Shown in pieces: positions 21,270 through 29,536 of a stretch of DNA of 64,000 nt. The stretch comes from Mucilaginibacter sp. (GTDB taxonomy: Bacteria > Bacteroidota > Bacteroidia > Sphingobacteriales > Sphingobacteriaceae), in contig NZ_JAQBOC010000061.1 of NCBI RefSeq assembly GCF_028288225.1, forward strand, positions 1-64,000. The letters run 5' to 3'. The translations under genes and the position numbers were made by a program. Every line of letters begins with the position of its first letter. The stretch's first letter is position 1. The notes beneath the pieces were generated by a model. It searched no databases, was not told the origin of the DNA, and saw only the letters and a program-made list of their open reading frames with translations.

Positions 21270-21300
21270 TTGCAGCTTTCGCCATTTTTATTTATCTTTG
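21270..21300 (+). promoter_or_regulatory. Bacteroidota-type promoter of the AbiE-like pair
   Basis: TTG at 21270-21272, 20 bases, then TATCTTTG at 21293-21300 match the Bacteroidota sigma consensus (TTG-N19-21-TAnnTTTG). Transcription would begin about where the ATG at 21307 lies, giving a leaderless or nearly leaderless mRNA. The upstream TTG start of the ORF track falls inside the promoter. Confidence 0.65.
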
Positions 21301-21306
21301 CGTATT

Positions 21307-21894
21307 ATGGCAATGACAAAAGTAGATGAGCTCCGCCGCCATTTAAAGCGGGGGAAGGTTTATAGGAGAAGCGATCTTGAAGTGTATTCCACTGCGGTTG
21401 ACCGGCATTTGGGTATGCTGGTCAAAGAGGGTGCGCTGCAGAAAATAGCACCAGGTATGTATTATCATCCCAGGGAAACTGTATATGGTGCTGTTCCGCC
21501 TGATGAAGAGACTTTGGTTAAAAGTTTCCTAAAGGACGACCGTTTTCTGGTGACGTCTCCAAATGTTTACAATAGTCTGGGTGTTGGCACCACGCAGTTA
21601 TATAATAAACGGGTAGTGTATAATCACAAGCGGCATGGAGAATATACGTTGGGCAATAAGCACTTTACGTTTTTAAAAAAGCCGCATTTTCCAAAACAGG
21701 TTACACCTGAATTTTTGGTGGTTGACCTGGTAAATAATGTAGATACGCTTGCCGAAGATAAAACAATGGTATTGGGTAAAGTAGCAGATAAAGTGCGACA
21801 GATGGATCATAAAAAGCTGGCCAAAGCTGTAAGGGAATATGGCAGCGTCAGGACACGAAAATTATTCGACAATGGCCGCTGGCTTTCTGCATAA
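21307..21894 (+). CDS. AbiEi-like winged-helix antitoxin / transcriptional repressor
   Basis: 195 aa from the ATG at 21307 (MAMTKVDELRRHLKRGKVYRRSDL). The N-terminal winged helix reads RSDLEVYSTAVDRHLGMLVKEGALQKIAPGMYYHP, the pattern of AbiEi/DUF6088-type antitoxins. In that family the protein represses its own promoter and counteracts the nucleotidyltransferase toxin. The C-terminal part contains the usual LVVDLVNNVDTLAEDK region. The toxin gene overlaps the 3' end by 23 bases, which means translational coupling. The -7 element lies only seven bases upstream of the start. Confidence 0.85.
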   Translation: MAMTKVDELRRHLKRGKVYRRSDLEVYSTAVDRHLGMLVKEGALQKIAPGMYYHPRETVYGAVPPDEETLVKSFLKDDRFLVTSPNVYNSLGVGTTQLYNKRVVYNHKRHGEYTLGNKHFTFLKKPHFPKQVTPEFLVVDLVNNVDTLAEDKTMVLGKVADKVRQMDHKKLAKAVREYGSVRTRKLFDNGRWLSA

Positions 21895-22825
21895 CCGCAA
21901 GGATTTCCCTGAGTTGATCAGGGTGATCGAGGGTGAAACAAATATTTTAGCCGGTCTGATCGAAAAGGATTACTGGATCATGCATGCCCTTTTTGGCCTG
22001 AAGTAATCAGGGCATGATTTCGAGTTGAAAGGCGGCACCTCGCTATCGAAAGCCTATAAAATCATCCACCGTTTTTCTGAAGATATCGATATTCATATCA
22101 ACCCGCCTGCCGGGATGAAGATCAATGAAAACCCTAACAATACCAAAACTGCAACTGTCGCCGCACGTAAGGCTTTTTATGACTGGCTTGCTGAAAATAT
22201 CAAAATTGATGGTATTGAAAAGATTGAACGTGATCTGAATTTTGACAATGATTCGGGGACAAGCGGAGGTATCAGGCTATTTTATAAATCACATTTTCCG
22301 GCTATAGCCGGAGTTAAGGAAGGGATCTTACTGGAAGCCGGTTTTGATACAGTAAGCCCAAATTCAACGCTTACGATCAGTTCATGGGCGTATGATAGAG
22401 CCGCAGAAAACAAGAGGATCGGGATCGTTGATAATCGTGCGGTTGATATCAAGTGCTATGATCACCGCTACACGTTTGTAGAAAAATTGCAGACCATTGC
22501 CACTAAGTTCCGGAAAGAACAGGAGTCAGGTGTCGAAACGCAGAACTTTATGCGGCAATATTATGATATATATTCTTTGCTGGCTGACGGGCAGGTCCAG
22601 GAATTTCTGGGAACTGCACCTTATTTGGAGCATAAAAAAAAGCGTTTTCCGGCAACGGATTTCGTCATCCCGGTAGGCGAAAACCAGGCTTTTCTTTTAG
22701 AAGACGAAAAGTTGCGCGCAAGATATAAGGTACGATATGAAGCGACTGCAGCGCTGTATTACAATGGCCAACCTGATTTTGAAGGGGTAATGGGACGCAT
22801 TAGGGCGTTTGTGGCAAAGATGTAG
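21872..22825 (+). pseudogene. AbiEii-like nucleotidyltransferase toxin interrupted by one in-frame stop codon
   Basis: The full reading frame starts at the ATG at 21872 (MAAGFLHNRKDFPEL) and is intact to 22825 except for TAA at 22004-22006 (codon 45; ...HALFGLK-stop-SGHDFELKGG). The stop lies just before the nucleotidyltransferase core: KGGTSLSK and SEDIDI (the DxD metal site), then VDIKCYDHRYTFVEKLQT. AbiEii/AbiGii toxins transfer nucleotides to tRNA or other targets. With the stop the product lacks everything after 44 residues, unless translation restarts at the TTG at 22025, which would keep the GGTSLSK motif but lose the N-terminal helices. A family Gln codon (CAA) changed to TAA is the simplest cause. 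Confidence 0.8.
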
Positions 22826-23811: not shown

Positions 23812-24951
23812 TTAATCATTCATAAATTTAACCAGGGGATTAAATAAACCCTGCTTTTTTAAGTCTTCCGTGTATTCCCAAAACATTACCCCCGCTAAAT
23901 TATTCTTTTTCACATATCTGGTCTTATATTTAAATGACCTTACGTCATTATAAGTAACAAACGTGTGGACTTTACTGTTCCACAAGTAGGGTACTTTCGA
24001 TTTTTTGTCCCAAAATCTTTCAAAACCATTCTTGTTGATGTACGAATTTTCCAGAGAATCATAAGGTAAAGAAAAATGATGGCCAGCAGAAGGCTGATAT
24101 AATCCCCGATCCTGATCATTTACCATGGTCCAGCCGCGGCCATAAAAAGGTAAGCCCATCACTATTTTATTTGCAGGCACTCCTGCTTTTATAAAGTTTT
24201 GGATCGCATCAGCAGCGCTAACCCTGACTTGATGTCCATATTTTGATTGATAAAGATTACTTTGATGACCTGTTACTTTATCATTACCGTTATAAATATC
24301 GTAAGTCATTATATTTACATAATCAAGGTACCTACTAACGGGGCCTACTTCTGTATGGTTCATATAAGCAGTATCTACTCCCATAGCTGCTGTTAACAGG
24401 TAGTTTTGATGATGGCCTGAAGCAGCCTGTTCATCAAGCGCTGCACGAAACTCTTTCATCAGCAGAGTGAAATTTTGCTTGTCTTCCGGCCTGTATATAT
24501 TACCTGCTCCTATTTGGGCAGGGTATTCCCAGTCAATGTCAATCCCGTCAAGTTTAAATTTCTCAATGAATGCTAATGCGCTTGCAATAAATTTCGCCCT
24601 GGATTCGGCAGTTAAAGAAGCATCCGAAAAATATTTACATCCGCCCCAACCCCCAACTGAAATCAAAATCTTAAGCGCTTTATTTTCGTCTTTAGTCGTA
24701 TTTAATATAGCGAGGTTTGTTGAGTCTTTTACAGAAGCTGGTGCTAAAACTCCGTTCTGGGTCAGATTTGCAAAAGCATAAATGATATGAGTCATTTTTG
24801 TAGCAAGGATATCTTCTTTGGTCCAGTTTTTACTACCAATGTAACCCATTATCACGTATTTGCTGCTCCCGGTGCTATGGGACTGGGCAAATAAACAATG
24901 GCTTTGTATTAAAAGCATAATAGCCGCAAGGGAAACAAAAGTGCGCTTCAT
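23812..24951 (-). CDS. Secreted GH18 chitinase-like glycoside hydrolase
   Basis: 379 aa with a signal peptide (MKRTFVSLAAIMLLIQSHCLFAQ). The GH18 catalytic signature DGIDIDWEYP sits at residues ~135-144, with Glu142 as the acid/base. The SxGG strand motif (ILISVGGWGG, ~95-104) and the late-barrel motifs MTYDIY and GVMFWEYTEDL are also present. GH18 enzymes cleave chitin or related beta-1,4-GlcNAc chains by substrate-assisted catalysis. The protein is a single catalytic domain with no binding module, and probably periplasmic or secreted. It is monocistronic. Confidence 0.93.
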   Translation of the reverse strand: MKRTFVSLAAIMLLIQSHCLFAQSHSTGSSKYVIMGYIGSKNWTKEDILATKMTHIIYAFANLTQNGVLAPASVKDSTNLAILNTTKDENKALKILISVGGWGGCKYFSDASLTAESRAKFIASALAFIEKFKLDGIDIDWEYPAQIGAGNIYRPEDKQNFTLLMKEFRAALDEQAASGHHQNYLLTAAMGVDTAYMNHTEVGPVSRYLDYVNIMTYDIYNGNDKVTGHQSNLYQSKYGHQVRVSAADAIQNFIKAGVPANKIVMGLPFYGRGWTMVNDQDRGLYQPSAGHHFSLPYDSLENSYINKNGFERFWDKKSKVPYLWNSKVHTFVTYNDVRSFKYKTRYVKKNNLAGVMFWEYTEDLKKQGLFNPLVKFMND

Positions 24952-25720: not shown

Positions 25721-25731
25721 ATGAAACAAAT
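25678..25731. repeat. Direct repeat copy A: 5' stub of the gene at 33.46 kb
   Basis: AACTTTTCGATGTC-n-GTCATT-n-AG followed by TAGCTAATATA recurs at 33442-33495 in the same orientation. On the minus strand it encodes MTDIEKF plus the upstream region of the gene at 32949-33461. Here homology stops after seven codons. Confidence 0.75.
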
Positions 25732-26200
25732 CAGTTCGAAATTATACGCAGAAATTGATGCGATGAAGGGCAGGAGCATAGGGGATGATTACTACCAGGC
25801 GCATATAGGAATCATAGAGGAGCGCATTGAAAAGGCGGGAATTAGGTTAGCGGGCGTATTGAATGAGGTATTTAAAGGAGGGCCGGTTAACGGCGCTATG
25901 ATCCCGCCACCGGCAATGGCGCAAAACCAGGGCGCCCAAACTGCACAACAAACTGTTTGCGATCAGGTGTATACGACCAGGTTGATAGATGGTTCCCAAA
26001 TGACGCTGCTCAGCCTGGGGGGAGCTTATCCTAATCAAAAAATCACGATTATGATTAAAGGAAGTGACCGTTCGAAATTTACCGTTGCTCCGGAAGAAGC
26101 GTTTAAAGACAAGAAAATCTGCGTTACAGGTATTGTTGTTGCGTATAAAGGCAAGCCGGAAATTATGGTAACAGATCCGAAACAGATCACCGTCCAGTAA
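25721..26200 (+). CDS. OB-fold (tRNA_anti-like) domain protein
   Basis: 159 aa. Residues ~1-50 are helical and unrecognised, followed by an Ala/Gln/Pro linker. The C-terminal ~80 residues have the OB-fold pattern seen in many Bacteroidota proteins: VYTTRLIDGSQMTLLSLG, then PNQKITIMIKGSDRSKF, and KKICVTGIVVAYKGKPEIMV. The G-x-I-x-x-Y-K-G-K-P-E-I segment is the hallmark of this small family, often periplasmic; no signal peptide is visible here, so the N-terminus may have been exchanged. The start lies within a 50-bp block shared with the 33-kb gene, consistent with a recombination joint. Confidence 0.65.
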   Translation: MKQISSKLYAEIDAMKGRSIGDDYYQAHIGIIEERIEKAGIRLAGVLNEVFKGGPVNGAMIPPPAMAQNQGAQTAQQTVCDQVYTTRLIDGSQMTLLSLGGAYPNQKITIMIKGSDRSKFTVAPEEAFKDKKICVTGIVVAYKGKPEIMVTDPKQITVQ

Positions 26201-26253: not shown

Positions 26254-26395
26254 TCAGCTAAGCGCCTGTTCCGGTAAATGAGCCAGGCTCTTTGCCCCGC
26301 CGGACATGAAAACCTTGGCCTCTTTATGCGCTTTCTTCGCAATTGGCACAGCAGCTTCTTCCAGAATTTTTATAATGATATGAATTATTTCACTA
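26254..26395 (-). pseudogene. C-terminal coding remnant, unidentified
   Basis: A minus-strand frame without a start reads ...KILEEAAVPIAKKAHKEAK, then VFMSGGAKSLAHLPEQALS-stop (stop at 26254-26256). The composition looks like a real helical protein end. It runs into the SatD operator region at its 5' side, so its original N-terminus is lost. Confidence 0.35.
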
Positions 26396-26465
26396 CTTAT
26401 GAAATAGTACAAATTATTTCACTATTTATGAAATAATTATAAATGTTTCATTATATTTGAAACAT
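26386..26465 (+). promoter_or_regulatory. Three phased TTTCA-N7-TGAAA palindromes (operator array of the SatD operon)
   Basis: Palindromes are centred at 26396 (TATTTCA/TGAAATA), 26425 (AATTATTTCA/TGAAATAATT, perfect 10-bp arms) and 26454 (ATGTTTCA/TGAAACAT, perfect 8-bp arms). Every spacer is 7 bp and the centres are exactly 29 bp apart. The third overlaps the start codon at 26464. This strongly suggests cooperative binding of a dimeric repressor. Confidence 0.8.
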
Positions 26466-27105
26466 GAAAGAATACATCATTATAATGGCCGATGTAATCG
26501 GCAGCCGTGATGAAGATCAGGCGCTGCTCATGGCAGATTTCAAGGAGCTGGTAAGCGGGGTAAATGTGTCAAGAAAAAATACCCTGGTTTCACCGCTAAC
26601 GATCACACTGGGGGATGAGTTTCAGGGGGTGCTGGATAATATTAAGGATGCGGTGAATGTAGTATTAGATTTGGAAGAAGCCATTGTGCGGAATGGTAAA
26701 GACTTTAAGTTAAGGTACGTTATTGTGGAGGGTTTGATTGAAACACCTGTCAATACGGAGATCGCTTACGGCATGCTGGGTGATGGATTAACAAGGGCGC
26801 GGAAATACCTGGAAAATTTGAAAAAAGACGATTTGCGCTTTTTCTTTTGGCTGAAGGACCAGCCGCAGAAGAACGCGTTAGGTAATGTATTCACTGCTTT
26901 ACAGGATATCATTGACGACTGGAACCCGGAGCGGGATTTTTACCTGGTTACGGCTTTTTTAGAGTTTAAGGACTACAAAAGGGTGGCGATGGCGTTGCAG
27001 AAGGAGCGCTCTTTGATGTGGAAACGGAAAAAGAACTTAAAAATAAATGCTTACTTTGCTTTAAAAGAAGTAGCCAGTTATATAGGAGGAATCCAACATG
27101 CCTGA
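26464..27105 (+). CDS. SatD family protein
   Basis: 213 aa. It matches the SatD family pattern: MADVIGSR near the N-terminus, SPLTITLGDEFQGVL at ~57-71, and a C-terminal helical region that may include an HTH-like segment. The biochemical role of SatD proteins is not well defined. The gene overlaps the next by 8 bases and is preceded directly by three palindromic operators, so expression is tightly controlled, perhaps by SatD itself or a regulator encoded elsewhere. Confidence 0.8.
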   Translation: MKEYIIIMADVIGSRDEDQALLMADFKELVSGVNVSRKNTLVSPLTITLGDEFQGVLDNIKDAVNVVLDLEEAIVRNGKDFKLRYVIVEGLIETPVNTEIAYGMLGDGLTRARKYLENLKKDDLRFFFWLKDQPQKNALGNVFTALQDIIDDWNPERDFYLVTAFLEFKDYKRVAMALQKERSLMWKRKKNLKINAYFALKEVASYIGGIQHA

Positions 27106-27469
27106 ATTTTTGATCTTAAGCCTGCTATTTGTTATTACGGAGGTTTTTATCGCTTTTATTTTTGCTGCGATTGCGCAGATTTTCTATCACCAGATCGGCC
27201 TTAATTTTAAGGCGATTTTCAAAGGGATAGCCGAACGGGTGTTTTTATTTGTTACGCTGACGAATGGCTACACCCAGGCATTGACCTTTTTCAGCGCCCT
27301 TAAACTGGCGACCAGGCTGAAACATGAGGAACCTAAAGCTGATTTGGACGGGTTCAATGATTATTACCTGATCGGCAACCTGCTATCTGTAGTGGTCGCG
27401 ATCGCCTATGTGTATACTTACCAGCATTTCAGCGAGATCCATTTGTTTCAATTACTGAGTGGCAAATAA
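27098..27469 (+). CDS. Small membrane protein paired with SatD (DUF3307-like context)
   Basis: 123 aa with hydrophobic segments at about 3-33 (FLILSLLFVITEVFIAFIFAAIAQI), ~45-62 (ERVFLFVTLTNG) and ~90-112 (YLIGNLLSVVVAIAYVYTYQHF). The order SatD then a small membrane protein is a recurring gene pair in Bacteroidota. It overlaps satD by 8 bases, implying translational coupling and a joint function at the inner membrane. The specific function is unknown. Confidence 0.7.
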   Translation: MPEFLILSLLFVITEVFIAFIFAAIAQIFYHQIGLNFKAIFKGIAERVFLFVTLTNGYTQALTFFSALKLATRLKHEEPKADLDGFNDYYLIGNLLSVVVAIAYVYTYQHFSEIHLFQLLSGK

Positions 27470-27471
27470 AC

Positions 27472-27792
27472 ATGGCTAAATCTTTGAATAGCTTTGCATT
27501 TGAAGATTTTTTTATCCGTTTTAAGGAAGCCGCGACCAATGTTGGCATCCCTGGGCTGCCGAAAGATGTGCACCTTTCTATTTCACATCATCCGAACAGC
27601 CCGGACATTAATCTTTCAGGTTGTACAGACCTGGTAAATCAGCCCTCTGTGCAATGGCGCTTATGGCAGGCCAACCAGGAATTTGCGCGGCATCAGGCCG
27701 GGCCGCCGCAAGCGGGTTTATTGGCTTCACCAAACGCCTTTTTTGTGTATTACTCACTTCAGCAGGCTGTTTTCGACAGAAAACAGACGTAA
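27472..27792 (+). CDS. Hypothetical protein, third gene of the SatD operon
   Basis: 106 aa, starting two bases after the membrane protein gene. Residues 1-45 look like a normal small domain (FAFEDFFIRFKEAATNVGI). The C-terminal half is Ala/Gln/Pro-rich and less regular. It is not recognised. Being in-line with no gap, it probably belongs to the same transcript. Confidence 0.5.
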   Translation: MAKSLNSFAFEDFFIRFKEAATNVGIPGLPKDVHLSISHHPNSPDINLSGCTDLVNQPSVQWRLWQANQEFARHQAGPPQAGLLASPNAFFVYYSLQQAVFDRKQT

Positions 27793-27985: not shown

Positions 27986-29536
27986 ATGGAAAAGATACCA
28001 GTATCTAAGATCAATCGTATCCGGGAGGATTTTCTGGCTGGCGGCATACATCGCACCAATTTAGCTAAAGAATTAAAGTTAAACCGGCGCACGGTGGGAA
28101 AGTATGTGCGCGAATTCAAGCAAATCGCCCAACTATATCCCGGTAAGGAAAAAGACTTCAATTTTCGGCTGCCCAGGAAGCGTCGCGCTCAAACACAGTT
28201 ATTTAAAGATCTCTCGGCGATTCTGCCCGTTTTAATAGAACGTGCGAAGACCCCGCGCTTACAACTCATTCATTTGTGGGCAGACTACCGGACGGTTTAT
28301 CCGGGAGGCTATGGCTTATTCTGGTTCGAATTTCATTATAATAATTGGCGAAATGAAAATCAGGTTTGTCCTTATTGGAACCGGCGGATACGGCAGATCG
28401 ATCCCTTCGATGAGGCTGTGCTCCTCAAGTGGAAAAATACCGGTAGCCGGGAGGAATGGAAAAAGGCGACGGTGATCTTAGGGTCTTATCATGGCAGGCC
28501 TTTAGCAGAAATGCTGCTGCAGGTTGAAAAAGCACGGGAAACGGTTTTGCTGTGGATCGATAACTTCAAAACCGGCGGTATTCCCAAGCTGGACAAACAA
28601 CCTTATACCACCTGTCCTGCCTTATTGGAAAAGGTCAAGATCAAGCAGGAAAACCTGACCAAATTATTGCACCAGGCACCTCAGATACACGGGCTCAACC
28701 GTGCCTCCTGGCGGGTAGAAGACCTTTGTATTATTTATGAGCAGTTCTACGGGCAGGCGATCAGCCGCAGTTGCGTCCAGGAAAATTTGCATAAAATGGG
28801 ATTGGGTTATTACCGGTCCCGCGAACTGCTGACCAGCCCTGACCCGGATTTTAGGCCAAAGCTGGATCATATTAAGCAGATTCTGGCCAACCTCGGTGAA
28901 CGTGAACGGTTCTTCTCCGTAGATGAATACGGCCCCTTCGCCATTAAAATGAAGGTCGGCCGTAGTTTTACACCCAGCGGCCAAATGAAAACCGTGCCCC
29001 AGGTACAGAAGAGCAAAGGTTGCATCGTCGTGACCGCCGCGCTGGAGCTTTCCCGCAACCAGGTCAGCCACTTTTACTCGTATAAAAAGAATACCGACGA
29101 AATGATCAAGCTACTGGAATTATTACTGGTAGAATATCAGGACACCGATAAGCTGTATTTTTCCTGGGACGCCGCCAGCTGGCATGCTTCCAAAAAACTC
29201 TATGACAGGATCATTGAGCTCAATAGTGACGCCTACCGCACCCGGTACCACACACCATTGGTGGAACTCGCGCCTTTGCCTGTTTCCGCCCAGTTCCTGA
29301 ACGTGATCGAATCGGTTTTCAGCGGCCTGGCCAAAGGTGTTATTCATAACAGCGATTACGAATCTGCAGAAGCCTGCCGTAACGCCATCGACCGGCATTT
29401 TCGCGACCGCAACTTACACTTTCAACAGCATCCAAAAAGAGCCGGGCATAAAATATGGGGCCAAGAAACGGTACCTCCTGAATTCAACGAAGGCCGGCAC
29501 ACCAAGAACCTGACGACTATGCGTGGCGCAAAGTAA
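27986..29536 (+). CDS. IS630/Tc1-mariner-like DDE transposase
   Basis: 516 aa. An N-terminal helix-turn-helix (NLAKELKLNRRTVGKYVREF, ~25-45) is followed by a long linker and a C-terminal DDE domain. Candidate catalytic residues lie in SVDEYGPFAIK (first Asp), YFSWDAASWHASK (second Asp) and NVIESVFSGLAKG (Glu). The order and spacing fit the IS630 superfamily, though the protein is longer than most (~340-400 aa). No disrupting stop is present. Inverted terminal repeats and a TA duplication were not identified, so the element's ends are undefined. Confidence 0.85.
   Translation: MEKIPVSKINRIREDFLAGGIHRTNLAKELKLNRRTVGKYVREFKQIAQLYPGKEKDFNFRLPRKRRAQTQLFKDLSAILPVLIERAKTPRLQLIHLWADYRTVYPGGYGLFWFEFHYNNWRNENQVCPYWNRRIRQIDPFDEAVLLKWKNTGSREEWKKATVILGSYHGRPLAEMLLQVEKARETVLLWIDNFKTGGIPKLDKQPYTTCPALLEKVKIKQENLTKLLHQAPQIHGLNRASWRVEDLCIIYEQFYGQAISRSCVQENLHKMGLGYYRSRELLTSPDPDFRPKLDHIKQILANLGERERFFSVDEYGPFAIKMKVGRSFTPSGQMKTVPQVQKSKGCIVVTAALELSRNQVSHFYSYKKNTDEMIKLLELLLVEYQDTDKLYFSWDAASWHASKKLYDRIIELNSDAYRTRYHTPLVELAPLPVSAQFLNVIESVFSGLAKGVIHNSDYESAEACRNAIDRHFRDRNLHFQQHPKRAGHKIWGQETVPPEFNEGRHTKNLTTMRGAK

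Follow-up and report, generated by a model that had tools for sequence, protein, structure and literature searches.

Three palindromes stand directly in front of satD in the 64,000-nucleotide stretch of Mucilaginibacter DNA analysed here (the window), and the question is which protein reads them. The first-pass annotation of this DNA had offered two options, SatD itself or a protein encoded at a distance. We consider it very likely that the palindromes are SatD's own operator array and that SatD is a one-component autoregulator with a palm domain and a helix-turn-helix domain; binding and repression are both inferred.

The palindrome array and the probable promoter of satD

The array and the gene behind it consist of the following features.

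26386-26406: operator 1, TATTTCA-CTACTTA-TGAAATA, 7-bp arms, 29 bp to operator 2
26412-26438: operator 2, AATTATTTCA-CTATTTA-TGAAATAATT, 10-bp arms
26443-26465: operator 3, ATGTTTCA-TTATATT-TGAAACAT, 8-bp arms, overlapping the -7 box and the satD start codon
26452-26459, plus strand: TATATTTG, match to the Bacteroidota -7 element, inside operator 3
26464-27105, plus strand: satD, 213 amino acids, PF16264 (54 bits, cut-off 29)

The three TTTCA-N7-TGAAA sites described earlier were recovered at 26388-26404 (TTTCACTACTTATGAAA), 26417-26433 (TTTCACTATTTATGAAA) and 26446-26462 (TTTCATTATATTTGAAA). Their centres at 26396, 26425 and 26454 are exactly 29 bp apart, re-measurement returned the same perfect arms of 7, 10 and 8 bp, and the last palindrome does overlap the satD ATG at 26464. 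No fourth exact TTTCA-N7-TGAAA is present in the window (0.23 matches expected), and three matches were seen in 0 of 100 dinucleotide shuffles of the window.

Genome-wide motif counts were made by pattern searches. The single 17-mer has 27 copies in the genome (6.77 Mb) compared with 24 for a reversed control pattern, so the isolated sites can be attributed to chance. The doublet TTTCA-N7-TGAAA-N9-15-TTTCA has its only site in the genome ahead of satD, and the control pattern has none. With single sites at chance level and the doublet restricted to satD, a genome-wide regulon was rejected.

The Bacteroidota -7 promoter consensus is TAnnTTTG. A -7 box was found in 33% of 120 satD upstreams versus 10% in shuffles, and in seven representatives, the window and six others, it ends exactly 4 nt 5' of the ATG. 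No clear -33 element was seen. We infer that satD transcription starts at or beside the ATG. Bound to operator 3, SatD would sit on both the start codon and the likely -7 box. RNA polymerase should then be kept out, which would switch off satD and the membrane-protein gene that overlaps it, and the upstream operators would add cooperativity. SatD is thus most likely a repressor of its own operon. There are no expression data, and the choice of repression over activation is an inference from operator position only.

Two other readings bear on this promoter. The palindromes might work at the RNA level, as leader hairpins of satD in translation control or attenuation, and the transcribed strand would indeed fold well (z -4.7), but any DNA palindrome folds as RNA. 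With the likely -7 box inside operator 3, 4 nt from the ATG, operators 1 and 2 and most of operator 3 would stay untranscribed. The 28-29 bp spacing and the near-identical half-sites have no reason in RNA, and the array is linked to the recognition helix, as described below. We regard RNA hairpins as very improbable. Alternatively, SatD might bind the array but mainly activate the operon, or serve as a signal-triggered two-way switch; the arrays do extend beyond the promoter on its upstream side, in the window as far as about -78. The last site, however, overlaps the -7 box or the start codon in the window and in several other loci, which is typical of repression. In Streptococcus pyogenes, satD is reported to be essential in the strains tested and is present in 178 of 249 genomes (PMC11323703). 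A gene that is essential yet accessory fits a repressor or an antitoxin, the loss of which would explain this pattern better than loss of an activator. An activating or two-way role is unlikely, though it keeps some weight.

Spacing and sequence of the operators across the SatD family

Absence of the palindromes ahead of related satD genes would have counted against the first-pass annotation; they are present there. PF16264 searches and region fetches gave a sample of 150 satD loci, mostly from Bacteroidota. All pairs of palindrome centres 18-45 bp apart were scored within 130 bp upstream of each start codon, a scan blind to spacing. In 133 of the 150 satD upstreams the top-scoring pair lay 28.0 or 29.0 bp apart, whereas these distances were best in 4.7% of shuffled upstreams and in 5.5% of 235 control upstreams (other genes of the same loci). 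Among 119 representatives, one per 85% identity cluster, the fraction with 28-29 bp was 86%. A pair score of at least 23 was reached by 59% of satD upstreams and by 0% of controls. Individually, 51 of the 150 loci failed to beat all 20 of their own shuffles, but most of these still peak at 28-29 bp.

The spacing is also found far from Bacteroidota. Of eight distant plasmid-borne SatDs, six, from Alpha- and Gammaproteobacteria (Agrobacterium, Sphingomonas, Vibrio lentus) and from haloarchaea (three), are preceded by an array that is spaced at 27.5-29 bp and outscores each of its own 50 shuffles; the other two, the plasmid satD genes of Segatella and Arthrobacter, have no clear array. The haloarchaeal arrays (loci L241, L242 and L246) have a spacing of 29 bp; L241 and L242 share the operator TTCGCC/GGCGAA and a following gene annotated as DUF3307.

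Short tandem repeats, together with an IS630-family transposase gene downstream at 27986, could also be read as an iteron-like replication or partition site or a transposon end. Similar arrays, however, precede satD in more than 100 loci, mostly chromosomal, no replication gene adjoins the array in the window, and the array sequence tracks SatD rather than an insertion element. We give this possibility almost no credence.

The spacing of 29 bp amounts to about 2.76 helical turns at 10.5 bp per turn, a non-integer value as originally claimed, and this offset is itself conserved, 28-29 bp being 2.67-2.76 turns. Two or more SatD dimers would sit 28-29 bp apart with a fixed helical stagger, and adjacent dimers are inferred to be rotated by about a quarter turn backwards. 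Conservation of the spacing despite the changing sequence makes direct dimer-dimer contacts in a set geometry likely, again as an inference.

The operator sequence differs between SatD subfamilies and tracks the C-terminal helix-turn-helix. TTTCA/TGAAA accompanies WKR helices in 39 of 40 cases, and TTGCA/TGCAA accompanies WRR or YRR helices in 4 of 4, or 10 of 10 with more loci. Other pairs are QSSVSEALKRAH with CCGATA, QSNxSEALKRGG-like helices with CAGATA, QPSVNSRLKSAG with TCTATA, QSSVSQRLKRAN with CTTATA and YKN types with GGTTAAA. L066 (WKR) and L197 (YKR) are exceptions with mixed sites. The second SatD of the same genome (L017) has the helix QGAVNRRLKAAK and the operator TATCATA. Its gene (G000:C30:30058-30615, minus strand) has a DUF3307-like partner and is a natural internal control.

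To tell this relation apart from shared descent, it was examined by comparing the identity of 11-residue windows of SatD (203 windows) with operator similarity, controlled for identity in the rest of the protein, among 99 representatives of less than 70% identity. The array fit places some loci (L025, L134, L154) on an alternative dyad between sites, so the half-site comparison allowed shifts and both orientations. The recognition-helix window, 181-191, ranked first of the 203 (partial r 0.30, n = 99, 0 of 1000 permutations). It also ranked first within the Q-type class (57 sequences), where ten of the ten top windows overlap the helix region. Within the W/Y-x-R class (n = 26), which includes the window's SatD, it ranked only 30 of 203 (8 of 1000 permutations). 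A partial Mantel test of helix against operator gave 0.33 (0 of 2000). Operator similarity also tracks the N-terminal domain after control for the helix (0.38), so ancestry was not fully removed. Residue 187 changed from K to R about four times on the N-domain tree, usually with a change of operator base alongside; an independent-pairs test of this switch had at most 4 pairs, too few for significance.

A protein encoded elsewhere could still bind the palindromes, SatD being merely the regulated gene: binding is unmeasured, and palindromes of the TTTCA/TGAAA type are generic. Against such a distant binder, the operator follows SatD's own recognition helix, one genome has two SatDs with two different operators, the array occurs at satD only in the genome, and the DNA block shared with related species holds no other regulator. 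Arrays also accompany satD on plasmids of unrelated phyla and of archaea. We find a distant binder quite improbable. The co-variation with the recognition helix, the satD-only array and the lack of another regulator in the shared block, together with the C-terminal helix-turn-helix, point to SatD, and of the two binders first proposed it is SatD that gains support. Its binding to the array is strongly inferred, without binding data. One SatD dimer would read one TTTCA-N7-TGAAA palindrome, and the recognition helix RSLMWKRKK would contact TGAAA.

Domains of SatD and its partner gene

The protein and the gene that follows it were divided as follows.

26464-26853, plus strand: class III nucleotidyl cyclase-like (palm) domain, residues 1-130; D10 and D51 nearly invariant
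26926-27087, plus strand: helix-turn-helix domain, residues 155-208, from the profile, HTH models and AlphaFold2
27007-27039, plus strand: recognition helix, residues 182-192, inside the segment that co-varies with the operator
27098-27469, plus strand: partner gene for a 123-amino-acid predicted membrane protein, overlapping the end of satD by 8 nt

With 54 bits, the window protein belongs to the SatD family (PF16264), which is named after satD of the Streptococcus mutans sat operon. The match spans residues 4-205 and is above the gathering cut-off; NCBIfam gave no SatD match for the protein. A profile built from 60 SatDs aligned with Ma1120, a class III cyclase, at profile positions 4-85 (E 0.002) and with MarR-type and sigma helix-turn-helix proteins at positions 144-193, and 21-23 of the 60 members individually match the HTH_24 or Sigma70_r4 models. 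An AlphaFold2 model from four sequences (mean pLDDT 80.7) combines a palm-like beta-alpha-beta half with a C-terminus made only of helices. In a Foldseek search of this model against the PDB, Ma1120 came first (E 6.8e-5, probability 1.0; TM 0.35-0.47 by query length), followed by other class III cyclases, Cas10 palm domains and GGDEF. Weak Sm/LSm matches in a phmmer search of SatD alone against the PDB were not supported by the profile and fold searches and were discarded.

D10 and D51 occur in 99% of 200 SatD sequences; G50 and Q54 are also near-invariant. Judging from the profile alignment alone, D10 and D51 correspond to the metal-binding Asp pair of the cyclases. Neither the Asn nor the Arg of the transition-state Asn-x3-Arg is conserved within residues 105-116, where residue equivalence is uncertain. 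Cyclase catalysis is therefore in doubt, and it is safer to assume that the palm senses a ligand. We infer that a signal, perhaps a nucleotide that binds the palm, would release SatD from its operators.

A one-component transcription factor should have a helix-turn-helix and operators at its own promoter that are specific to its own recognition helix. SatD meets the first requirement by the profile, the member hits and the AlphaFold2 model, and the second by co-variation. These domains, the subtype-dependent motif and the family-wide 28-29 bp spacing go beyond the first-pass annotation.

The downstream gene could be read at 178 satD loci, where a few-base overlap with satD is the commonest arrangement and offsets of -4, -1, -7 and -8 are common. 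At least two membrane segments are predicted for its product in 162 of the 178, and this simple filter misses several short partners, the window's included. In the Q-type class the partner is a DUF3307 protein of 220-250 residues. Partners in the YKN class are of similar length but look different, and those in the WKR class, the window's included, are short, with 100-130 residues. An hhalign comparison matched the short form to the C-terminal portion of the longer partners (E 1.9e-6, probability 89.5); the window's partner likewise resembles the C-terminal portion of those of DUF3307 type.

DNA similarity to M. glaciei covers 26368-27621, and that to M. corticis 26383-27427. The shared block begins at the first operator and stops at the end of the partner gene or a short way beyond it, and no other conserved regulator is present in the block common to M. 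glaciei and M. corticis. Of 150 genomes in the genus, just 3 carry the unit, which, with these limits, looks like a small cassette. A 106-amino-acid ORF after the partner gene (27472-27792) has a partial match in M. glaciei and none in M. corticis and for that reason is probably outside the module.

Several neighbouring genes were also recorded. The IS630-family transposase gene (27986-29536) follows the cassette closely but is outside the block shared with either M. glaciei or M. corticis. An AbiE-like pair, a DUF6088 protein followed by an AbiEii nucleotidyltransferase toxin, lies 4 kb upstream of the cassette (21298-22825). A family 18 glycosyl hydrolase (chitinase-like) gene occupies 23812-24951 on the minus strand, and a 159-amino-acid ORF at 25721-26200, perhaps a remnant or a fusion, matches only the last 39 positions of an S1/P1 nuclease model.

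Comparison with known systems and significance

Like type II toxin-antitoxin operons and phage repressor arrays, the satD locus places the regulator first, with tandem palindromic operators over its own promoter. As in such autorepressed operons, there is an overlapping second gene and a patchy, cassette-like distribution. It differs from them in the cyclase-like palm sensor half of SatD, the fixed 28-29 bp stagger and a second gene for a membrane protein of the DUF3307 group. Two small genes with a patchy distribution, as expected of a toxin-antitoxin system, are present; autoregulation and co-transcription are inferred, the latter from the overlap. For a toxic partner neutralised by SatD, the only hint is that satD is essential yet accessory in S. 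pyogenes (PMC11323703).

In its fold and in D10/D51, SatD resembles class III nucleotidyl cyclases (Ma1120), the Cas10 palm, GGDEF and PycC. These two marks of cyclase homology are met, without implying cyclic nucleotide synthesis; unlike class III nucleotidyl cyclases, SatD is fused to a helix-turn-helix, and its third motif region shows no conserved Asn-x3-Arg, with residue equivalence uncertain there. Mycobacterial proteins of the adenylate cyclase-LuxR type also join a cyclase domain to an HTH, but they are large and carry an ATPase domain, whereas SatD has only about 210 amino acids. PADLOC models gave only weak hits to SatD and its partner, over HTH or membrane segments (best 17.5 bits), and no SatD was confirmed in IMG/VR viral contigs, where one pattern was searched.

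The papers found associate SatD with acid tolerance only, and our reading of it as a regulator differs from this. A literature search that covered few subscription journals found no description of SatD as a DNA-binding or autoregulatory protein, so that the assignment is probably, rather than certainly, new. A wider scheme is possible but doubtful, and we offer it tentatively: SatD and its membrane partner would form a widespread mobile two-gene module of bacteria and archaea, in which the palm senses or makes a nucleotide signal, the array represses, and release frees a harmful membrane protein, as a toxin-antitoxin or phage-defence switch. The role of the membrane partner in the SatD switch is inferred.

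A protein filed under 'acid tolerance' thus looks like the self-controlling gene switch of a small membrane-protein operon. A family that is widely annotated ('SatD, secretion and acid tolerance') but functionally empty becomes a class of DNA-binding regulators that can be tested and whose sensor half is unusual. An operator is now supplied for each SatD subtype, and the table of operators and helices is a natural specificity experiment. The stagger of 28-29 bp stays constant from Bacteroidota to haloarchaea while the sequence changes completely, which suggests fixed dimer contacts and selection on the whole assembly, not on individual sites. A DUF3307-type membrane protein under the control of SatD would also be a first handle on the DUF3307 family.
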